Assembly: GCA_029007115.1 (NCBI GenBank)
Contig: JAQXHG010000010.1
Span: 1-47,036, forward strand
Origin: a bacterium
Lineage (GTDB): Bacteria > Bacillota_I > Bacilli_A > RF39 > UBA660
DNA: 47,036 bases
Direction of reading: 5' to 3'
The position numbers and the translations under genes were made by a program. Below are positions 43,341 to 46,406 of this stretch, one piece after another (position 1 is the first letter of the stretch; each line of letters begins with the position of its first letter). The notes under the pieces were generated by a model that saw only the letters and a list, made by a program, of their open reading frames with translations, was not told the origin of the DNA and did not search any database.

Positions 43341-43553
43341 ATGGAAAAAGCATTATTAGTAATATCTGTAATTTTAATTGTAGTAGTATTATTACAAAGT
43401 AATAAAGCAAGTGATTCAAGTCAAATAATAACAGGAGGCAACTCAGTACTTTTTGGAAATACTAAAGAAAGAGGAGCAGAAAAATTTATTACTAGGTTAA
43501 CTTATTGTCTTGGATTTGCATTTATTATAATTGCATTTATACTATCATTATAA
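43341..43553 (+). CDS. secG: Preprotein translocase subunit SecG
   Basis: 70 residues with two transmembrane helices (about 3-18 and 51-69). The motif LLQSNKASDSSQIITGG and the hinge NSVLFGNTKERGAEKFITRLT are diagnostic. SecG helps SecYE-driven secretion. It heads secG-rnr-smpB, an order common in Bacilli, but a terminator and a new promoter lie between it and rnr here. Confidence 0.93.
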   Translation: MEKALLVISVILIVVVLLQSNKASDSSQIITGGNSVLFGNTKERGAEKFITRLTYCLGFAFIIIAFILSL

Positions 43554-43630: not shown

Positions 43631-45976
43631 ATGAATAACTATAATGAAATAATTGATTCAATTAAAACTAAAATTGAATTGCAAGATCAAATTTTAGAAA
43701 TTATTAAAAAAGAAAATAAAAAAATGAATGCACTTGAAATTATGAGAAAAATTAAAGATGAGTTTACAAGTGATGAACTTCGTGATGTCATTGAAAAATT
43801 AGATTATCTTTGTAGTGAAGGATTACTTAAAAGTGCTAGTGGGAATACTTATAAATTAAATGACTTATTAGTAGGTAGAGTGGATTTACATGAAAAGGGA
43901 AATGCTCATGTTATTATAGATGGAAGAGAAGATATGTTTATTCCAAGAGATAAAATAAGAGGAGCAAAAAATAAAGATTTAGTAAGTGTTGAGTATACAA
44001 ATGAAAGCAAAAATGAAGGAAAAATTATTAAAATATTAAAACGAAATCTTGGTAGTAATGTTGCAGAAGTTAAAAATAATAATGGAGAAATTTCACTTGA
44101 AGTATATGGACTAGATGATGAATATATTGTTGAAATAGAAGATACTGATATTAATTTAGTGGATGGATTACTTGTTCATTTAGAATATGTAAAAGATTTA
44201 AGTGATAATAGAGTTCTTGCTAGAATTGATAAAGTTCTTGGACATAAAAATGCTTTATTAAATGAAGGACAAATGCCTACTGAAGTATCAGGCGAAATTG
44301 TAAAGATTGCTTGTGAATATTCATTAAGATTGGAATTTCCTGAAGAAGTAAAAGAAGAAGCTAAGAAGATGCCTAAAGCATTAAGTCAAGATATGATAGA
44401 TGAAGGACTTAAAGCAGGAAGAGAAGACTTTAGAGGAGATTTAATTTTTACAATAGATGGTAAGGATACTAAAGATATAGATGATGCGGTTAGTGTTAAA
44501 ATACTTCCAAATGGAAATTATCAATTAGGTGTTCATATTGCAGATGTATCACATTATGTTAAACCAGGAATGGCACTATGGAAAGAAGCAGAAATTAGAT
44601 CAAATTCTAACTATTTAGGAAACAAAGTAATACCAATGTTACCAGTTGAGTTGTCAAATGGAATTTGTTCATTAAATCCAAATGAAGACAGATTTACAAT
44701 TAGTTGCATAATGGAAATAGATCATAGTGGTAAAGTAGTTGAATCAAGAGTAACTAAGGGTATAATTAATTCTAAAAAGAAAATGAATTATGATGCTGTT
44801 GAGGATATTCTTAATGATAGAGAAACAGAAGATACTAAAGATTATACTACTTTAGAATATACTGTTAAAAAAGGAGAAACACTAAATGATATAGCATTTG
44901 CTAATAATTTAGTTGTGGATGACTTATTAGAAGTTAACAAAGAGTTAGTAAATGAAAATGATATAAAAGAAGGAATGATTATAAATGTTCCTTGCAAGCA
45001 AATATTAAAAAATATGCATGCTTTATCTAAAAGAATTTCTGCATTTAAACAAAGACGAGGTGAACTTGTATTTGTTGGAGATGAAGTTAAAGTTATTCAA
45101 GATGAGAATGATGAAGTTATTGATATTAAAGCAAGAGATCAAAGGCCATCTGAAAGACTTATTGAAGACTTTATGGTTGTTGCAAATGAACAAGTCGCAG
45201 CATTCTTAGAAGAATATAATATCGCAACATATAGAATTCATGATAAACCACTTGAAATGAAGATAAATGAGTTTATGAAATTCTTAGAATTACTTGGTAT
45301 TCACTATCCTGGAAAAATAGATAAAGAAAATATTAGTAGTAAAGATTGTCAAAAATTACTTGAGTATTTGAAAGATGAAAAAATGTTTAAAATGCTTAAT
45401 AGAAAACTATTAAGAAGTATGCAAAAAGCAAGATATTCTACAGAAAATATTGGACATTTTGGTATAGCTAGTCCTAAATATACACATTTTACTAGTCCAA
45501 TTAGAAGATTTGATGACTTATTAAATCATACTAGTATAAGTTATATTTTAGAAGACTATACACTTCAAGAAGATTTTATGAAATCATGGAAAGCATATCT
45601 TACTACTATATGTGATCATATTTCTGATCAAGAAAGAAATAGTGAGAAGTGTGAATATGCAGTTGATGATATGTTAAAATCATATTATATGCAAAAACAC
45701 ATAGGAGAAGAGTTTGATGCTACTGTTGATTCATTAATGCCAACTGCATTTTTTGTACAAACAGATAATTATATAGAGGGAAGAGTAGATATAGTTGAGA
45801 AATCTGAAAATAATTATGTAGGTGTTGTAAGCAATTATGACTATAATGAAAATCTTATGGCATATACTAAAAATGGTAAAGTTGATCTTAGATATGGAGA
45901 TAGAATTAGAGTTAGATGTGTAGCTTCTGATTATAAAAAAAGACAAGTTGATTTTGCCCTTATAAGGAAATTATAA
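43631..45976 (+). CDS. rnr: Ribonuclease R with an embedded LysM domain
   Basis: 781 residues. This 3'-5' exoribonuclease degrades structured RNA and works with tmRNA. In order: a winged helix ([17 protein letters not shown]), cold-shock domains, the RNB domain with the catalytic [14 protein letters not shown] (about residues 275-288), [16 protein letters not shown] and [15 protein letters not shown], and a C-terminal S1 domain. Unusually, residues 410-454 are a LysM domain ([18 protein letters not shown], then DDLLEVNKE and [10 protein letters not shown]), placed where other RNase R proteins have about 15 linker residues. The frame is continuous and codon use is like the surroundings. smpB follows 1 bp later. 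Confidence 0.93.
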
Positions 45977-45977
45977 A

Positions 45978-46406
45978 ATGGAAATATTAAATAGAAAAGC
46001 TAGTCACGATTATTTTATTAAAGATACATACGAAGCTGGCATAGAATTACTTGGTACTGAAATTAAAAGTATTAGAAAAGGGCAAGCTAATATTAATGAT
46101 AGTTATGCAAGAGTTAAGAACAATGAAATATATTTAACTAATATGTATATTGCAAAGTATGAAGAAGGAAACAGATTTAATCATGATGAAAGAAGAGAAA
46201 GAAAACTATTGCTTCATAAAAATGAAATAATTAAGATTAATCACGAAATCACAACCAAAAGATATACTTTAATACCTCTTAAAGTATATTTTGTAAGGGG
46301 AAAGGCTAAAGTTAGTTTAGGAATATGTCAAGGCAAAAAACTTTATGATAAAAGACAGGTAATAAAAGAAAAAGACATAAAAAGAAAAGAATATTTAGAT
46401 TTATAG
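45978..46406 (+). CDS. smpB: SsrA-binding protein SmpB
   Basis: 142 residues. It binds tmRNA and is required for rescue of stalled ribosomes. Motifs: [75 protein letters not shown] and the basic tail [15 protein letters not shown]. The start is one base after the rnr stop, with AAGGAAA for ribosome binding. ssrA itself was not found in the window. Confidence 0.95.

Follow-up and report, generated by a model that had tools for sequence, protein, structure and literature searches.

A clade-restricted LysM domain inserted within the catalytic domain of a housekeeping RNase R

LysM is the textbook extracellular domain for binding to the cell wall, and RNase R is usually encoded between secG and smpB. 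An intracellular LysM interaction is known from SpoVID, whose LysM binds lipid II and the protein SpoVK in the mother-cell cytosol (PMC10659427). RNase R acts on 30S subunits, with known contacts through its helix-turn-helix (HTH) domain, its cold-shock domains (CSDs) and the tri-helix region 477-534 (PMC10901742). Here we describe an RNase R gene (rnr) that joins the two families, on a stretch of 47,036 nucleotides (the window; contig JAQXHG010000010.1 of assembly GCA_029007115.1, positions 1 to 47,036) from an RF39 bacterium of the lineage UBA660. The encoded enzyme carries a LysM domain within RNB, its catalytic domain. This clade-restricted, selected insertion in a housekeeping RNase R is real, and we tentatively read it as a docking surface.

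The first-pass annotation had placed a LysM domain at 44858-44992 (residues 410-454), and these coordinates proved exact. PF01476 matches residues 410-454 end to end (profile positions 1-43 of 43, hmmscan, E 1.4e-9), its 38.2 bits lying above the cut-off of 20.9; the isolated segment of 87 amino acids reaches 42.4 bits, and a Pfam scan of the window's own genome returns LysM at identical bases. Of 11 representative inserts, 10 match LysM at E up to 0.1. The domain is also embedded in the nuclease as described, PF00773 (RNB) covering residues 264-640 (E 2.7e-101, hmmscan) and flanking LysM on both sides, while RNase R of Bacillus subtilis aligns to residues 18-414 and 456-778, with the insert as the gap between. 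An AlphaFold2 model of the segment 382-492 has a mean pLDDT (predicted local distance difference test) of 81, with 85-92 across LysM, and the secondary structure of the fold, strand-helix-helix-strand (E26-30, H37-43, H48-54, E69-73 in segment numbering). Foldseek with this model lists LysM chains first (E from 3.7e-3, none at or below 0.001), as does VIA comparison, with Z up to 7.9 and a root-mean-square deviation (rmsd) of 0.8-1.3 (7r1l, Z 7.9, rmsd 1.3 over 46 residues; 4xcm, Z 7.9, rmsd 0.8 over 45). A Z near 8 is insufficient by itself; its agreement with the sequence profile is decisive for the predicted LysM fold. A scan of viral_contigs for further homologues to deepen the AlphaFold2 alignment found none.

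The gene, its parts and its neighbours are arranged as follows.

43631..45976, + strand: rnr, RNase R, 781 amino acids; ATG start; HTH - CSD1 - CSD2 - RNB (LysM inserted) - S1
44420..44773, + strand: N-terminal half of RNB, as far as the anchor that precedes the insert; starts at residue 264; aspartates D276, D282, D284 and D285
44774..44857, + strand: anchor and N-terminal linker, 28 residues; TEDTKDYxxLKY, kept in most of the genus
44858..44992, + strand: LysM domain, residues 410-454, strand-helix-helix-strand (Pfam, AlphaFold2, fold matches to LysM chains)
44993..45055, + strand: long RNB helix, residues 455-475 (AlphaFold2 models); begins right after the last LysM strand, no linker
45056..45550, + strand: C-terminal half of RNB, including R625/R626 of SPIRR (RNB profile match, conservation)
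43341..43553, + strand: SecG-like open reading frame (ORF) of 70 amino acids directly upstream of rnr (identity by sequence and gene order)
45978..46406, + strand: SmpB-like ORF of 142 amino acids directly downstream of rnr (identity by sequence and gene order)

The host enzyme had been taken for a cytoplasmic housekeeping nuclease, and both its secG-rnr-smpB setting and its intact catalytic residues bear this out. D276, D282, D284, D285, R625 and R626 are invariant in alignment A2, the catalytic aspartates presumably being those of the family motif IDxxxTxDxDDA. OB_RNB and CSD2 both exceed their Pfam cut-offs; S1 is weak by Pfam (15 bits, cut-off 22), yet aligned with 8cdu to residue 778. The superfamily model TIGR00358 is passed (448.3 bits, cut-off 368.6), while the RNase R equivalog TIGR02063 scores 567.3 bits, 30 bits below its cut-off of 597.85, in a match split into two stretches, the first of which stops at residue 421, within the insert. 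Because domain order, synteny and fold agree, we read this shortfall as the cost of the insert and of divergence, not as non-membership in RNase R. The best structural matches of the full-length model are RNase R chains (Z 28-32), B. subtilis RNase R matching from residue 14, and we take the large rmsd in these matches to reflect domain placement. The 3'-5' exoribonuclease chemistry is expected, from the conserved residues, to be unchanged by the insert. A pseudogene or a duplicate nuclease was considered and ruled out, the window holding the secG-rnr-smpB copy with its catalytic residues intact. Elsewhere in the genome RNB matches a single further protein, L025 (587 amino acids, C37:11273-11725), which is RNB-like but divergent.

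Since independent metagenome-assembled genomes (MAGs) from separate projects have the same insert (L054-L061, whose titles name rabbit-labelled 'Lapin' bins, SRR12081296/7 bins, AS09 and SUG767), an assembly artefact is ruled out, and the clean frame reported earlier stands, the ORF running uninterrupted along 43631-45976. Related uncultured Bacilli had been suggested as the place to look for the same insert: 17 of the 18 genomes of the window's genus (g1), a group of uncultured gut Bacilli, have an RNase R match, all 17 with the insert, and the eighteenth, 67% complete, has no RNase R match. The other RNase Rs of the genus share 47-64% protein identity with that of the window, and one carries two tandem LysMs at the same site (L023, with L055 as the corresponding record). 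Outside g1 the insert occurs, at the same site, in G049, the only genome sampled of genus g33. The two anchors lie 73-89 residues apart where the insert is present and 126 apart where LysM is doubled. In the 25 RNase Rs inspected from the family's other genera, which lack the insert, this spacing is 30-34. In the rest of the family, matches mostly break near residues 405 and 454. In the order scan, profile A1 scored above 110 bits for g1 and g33, with a next best of 40 bits. Scans with A1 of genomes sampled from the order (385), the class (395) and the phylum (392), samples that overlap and are non-exhaustive, returned no carrier besides g1 and G049; a LysM inserted independently between very different flanks could escape this profile.

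Whether or not the insert columns are included, trees of RNase R place the members of the genus together at full support and G049 elsewhere. They require two changes, but a single clade of g1 and G049 is not rejected (approximately unbiased test, p-AU 0.095), and the rpoB tree joins g1 to G049 with weak support (45/58). A single insertion of LysM, in an ancestor that the genus possibly shared with g33, would be the simpler reading.

The insert is under purifying selection. In close pairs of LysM sequences the ratio of nonsynonymous to synonymous divergence (dN/dS) is well below 1 (0.020/0.547, 0.041/0.142 and 0.030/0.578); a more distant pair, L019/L020, gave 0.434/0.396 on 41 codons and is noisy. 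Mean pairwise identity among the RNase Rs of the genus is 51% for LysM, similar values being found for S1 (50%), the CSDs (55%) and HTH (44%), and 65% for the N-terminal linker. Positions specific to the RNase R LysMs (hereafter RNR LysMs) include F/Y at column 14 (14 of 18 copies) and N at column 53 (16 of 18). Because the linker is conserved, and because the last LysM strand passes straight into the RNB helix 455-475 in the AlphaFold2 models, the orientation of LysM relative to RNB is probably fixed.

For its character the insert was compared across 18 RNR, 29 SpoVID and 46 amidase LysMs, the amidase set coming from the same genus; copies were assigned to a set by locus and ORF, after retrieval with a seed profile that itself contained members of all three. 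Mean net charge is -4.4 for RNR (-5 for the window copy), -3.1 for SpoVID and +2.5 for amidase LysMs. Since three extracellular LysMs of MepM type are likewise acidic (-3.7), acidity alone is no mark of cytosolic LysMs. The length is 41 residues in 14/18 RNR and 28/29 SpoVID copies, against 42-43 in 43/46 amidase copies, and the second ligand loop of RNR LysMs is usually shortened, usually by two residues relative to amidase LysMs. The glycine of GDT is retained in 6/18 RNR, 15/29 SpoVID and 45/46 amidase LysMs, and the aromatic after GDTL (GDTL-W) in none of the RNR or SpoVID copies but in 45/46 amidase copies. The window copy, with its glycine present and its loop longer, is among the more canonical RNR LysMs. 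Of the ligands suggested in the first-pass annotation, an aminosugar bound in the manner of wall LysMs is weakened, the aromatic being absent, the glycine mostly lost and the loop usually shortened, although T/S persists in nearly all copies; the acidity of the insert speaks against charge-based binding of RNA. The ligand may be a partner protein or a precursor of peptidoglycan in the cytosol. No result of our analysis points to anchoring of RNase R at the division site, as had also been suggested.

SpoVID-type proteins exist in the same bacteria. A SpoVID-like protein with a C-terminal LysM of 41 residues is conserved across the family (L004, L067-L083); in the window's own genome it is an ORF of 249 amino acids with LysM at C51:28985-29107 (L004), an architecture shared with many of the top non-RNR matches in the order. 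A relative of this ORF matches Pfam SPOCS_spoVID-N, and both SpoVID-like proteins tested match TIGR02907, well below its cut-off. Among the orders studied earlier, which comprise RF39, there are lineages with predicted walls and mixed sporulation (PMC10868615). The LysM might be a tether that, like the LysM of SpoVID, binds lipid II or its headgroup in the cytosol and holds RNase R at the membrane or forespore surface. RNR LysMs lean to SpoVID LysMs in length, in charge and in hidden Markov model score (mean 24.9 bits for the SpoVID and 19.9 for the amidase model over 18 copies), T/S is retained in 17 of the 18, most top non-RNR order matches to the RNR-LysM profile are SpoVID-like proteins, and the genome has genes for MurG and for five transpeptidase domains. 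However, the GDT glycine and the aromatic are largely lost and the second ligand loop is shortened, changes that SpoVID partly shares; the window copy prefers the amidase model (32.5 versus 10.2 bits), and nothing found ties RNase R to the envelope biochemically. We regard such a tether as unlikely. The origin of the RNR LysM may lean towards one in common with the SpoVID LysM.

Other LysM-bearing ORFs were also noted. L128 and L129 (609 and 618 amino acids) have a central LysM and a C-terminal half that is GH25-like by eye. An HD-domain ORF of 394 amino acids (L132, G015 C38) has a marginal LysM match at residues 242-268 (22.8 bits, cut-off 20.9), and its homologues L165 and L167 retain a similar stretch; judged by its sequence, it is possibly a second cytoplasmic enzyme of the family with an inserted LysM-like domain.

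As the best explanation, held tentatively and at slightly less than an even chance, we propose that LysM serves as a rigid docking surface and that the RNase R around it is otherwise normal. A housekeeping RNase R would have acquired the domain in an RNB loop just before the long helix; there it would bind a cytoplasmic partner, either a protein or a component of the ribosome or of another ribonucleoprotein, and thereby bring the enzyme to a place or a substrate, rather than act as a wall anchor. Docking is supported because the insert is present in 17/17 genomes, in tandem in one, and under purifying selection, and because the linker is conserved, specific positions exist and the traits are unlike those of amidase LysMs. 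Binding of SpoVK by the SpoVID LysM offers one intracellular precedent, and a domain of the trypanosome mitoribosomal small-subunit chain CJ, found by structural match, a second. Several points weigh against it. The docking partner is a proposed one; AlphaFold2 models the full-length protein with no more than moderate confidence (mean pLDDT 69, predicted template modelling score 0.52; pLDDT 80-91 in the blocks covering residues 391-470); the RNR-specific aromatic is absent in the tandem copy, L018 and L028; and in state I of the B. subtilis enzyme RNB contacts 30S through the tri-helix region 477-534, not through the insert loop (PMC10901742). An insert that need only fold harmlessly would be under purifying selection as well, so that dN/dS below 1 would equally follow if LysM were a decoration, captured by chance, tolerated between secondary-structure elements and unlikely to be removed cleanly, with no specific function. 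The wide variation of its surface residues fits this view, as does the highly diverged L018 copy (16.9 bits). A decoration would nevertheless have been kept in 17 small genomes out of 17 with no loss observed in the genus, and duplicated in one, and it would leave the conserved linker and the RNR-specific positions to be accounted for; we consider it somewhat unlikely.

The probabilities that we attach to these readings overlap, and their sum is not one, a ribosome contact being a special case of docking. In that case LysM would form a new contact on 30S or on a stalled ribosome in place of others such as the K/R-rich tail, which is missing from the C-terminus of the window's enzyme (45900-45976) and of the three others inspected (L012, L023 and L028). 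The known action of RNase R on 30S and the match of chain CJ residues 477-527 to the LysM model (Z 6.8, 51 aligned, rmsd 2.1) agree with such a role, but an acidic insert does not favour contact with rRNA and lies outside the known tri-helix contact, and we find this version improbable. Kbp, a cytoplasmic LysM protein that also has a BON domain, brings to mind a sensor of potassium or of another small ligand. It is among the fold matches (7pvc, Z 5.5; GINKO1 7vcm, Z 7.5), but these matches are no better than those to other LysMs and the BON domain is absent here, which makes a sensor very improbable. A bolder version, to which we give little credence, is that the whole genus has re-targeted RNase R by a SpoVID-type cytosolic LysM that binds lipid II or a coat protein, so that RNA decay is tied to assembly of the envelope or the spore.

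The preferred docking reading aside, a genus-wide, selected LysM within the catalytic domain of a cytoplasmic exoribonuclease means that the fold has been re-used inside the cell, and close relatives that possess the same enzyme without LysM provide a natural experiment. If the partner were a peptidoglycan precursor or a coat protein, RNA turnover would be linked to envelope biology; if it were the ribosome, a new way to recruit RNase R would emerge. The literature searched describes no LysM-RNase R fusion in its titles and abstract beginnings.

Compared to known RNase Rs (B. subtilis 8cdu/8cdv, Escherichia coli 5xgu, Mycoplasma genitalium 7dcy/7dic/7dol), the enzyme shares the order HTH-CSD-CSD-RNB-S1, the catalytic residues, the gene context and the top fold matches, but LysM occupies its RNB loop ahead of helix 455-475 and it has no K/R-rich tail. 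With the LysMs of wall hydrolases (PF01476 / CBM50) the insert has in common a complete profile match and a predicted fold like 7r1l and 4xcm, whereas it sits in a cytoplasmic nuclease, is acidic, lacks the aromatic after GDTL and usually has a shorter second loop. It resembles LysMs of SpoVID / SipL type in its 41 residues, its acidity and the missing aromatic, and this paralogue family is present in the genus; there, however, LysM is C-terminal on a SPOCS spore-coat protein, while here it is inserted within an enzyme. Chain CJ of the trypanosome mitoribosome (6sg9, 6hiw, 7pua/7pub) is an unrelated protein whose likeness is known from the structural match only, but it too is part of an RNA machine, a larger protein that holds a LysM-like fold inside the cell.
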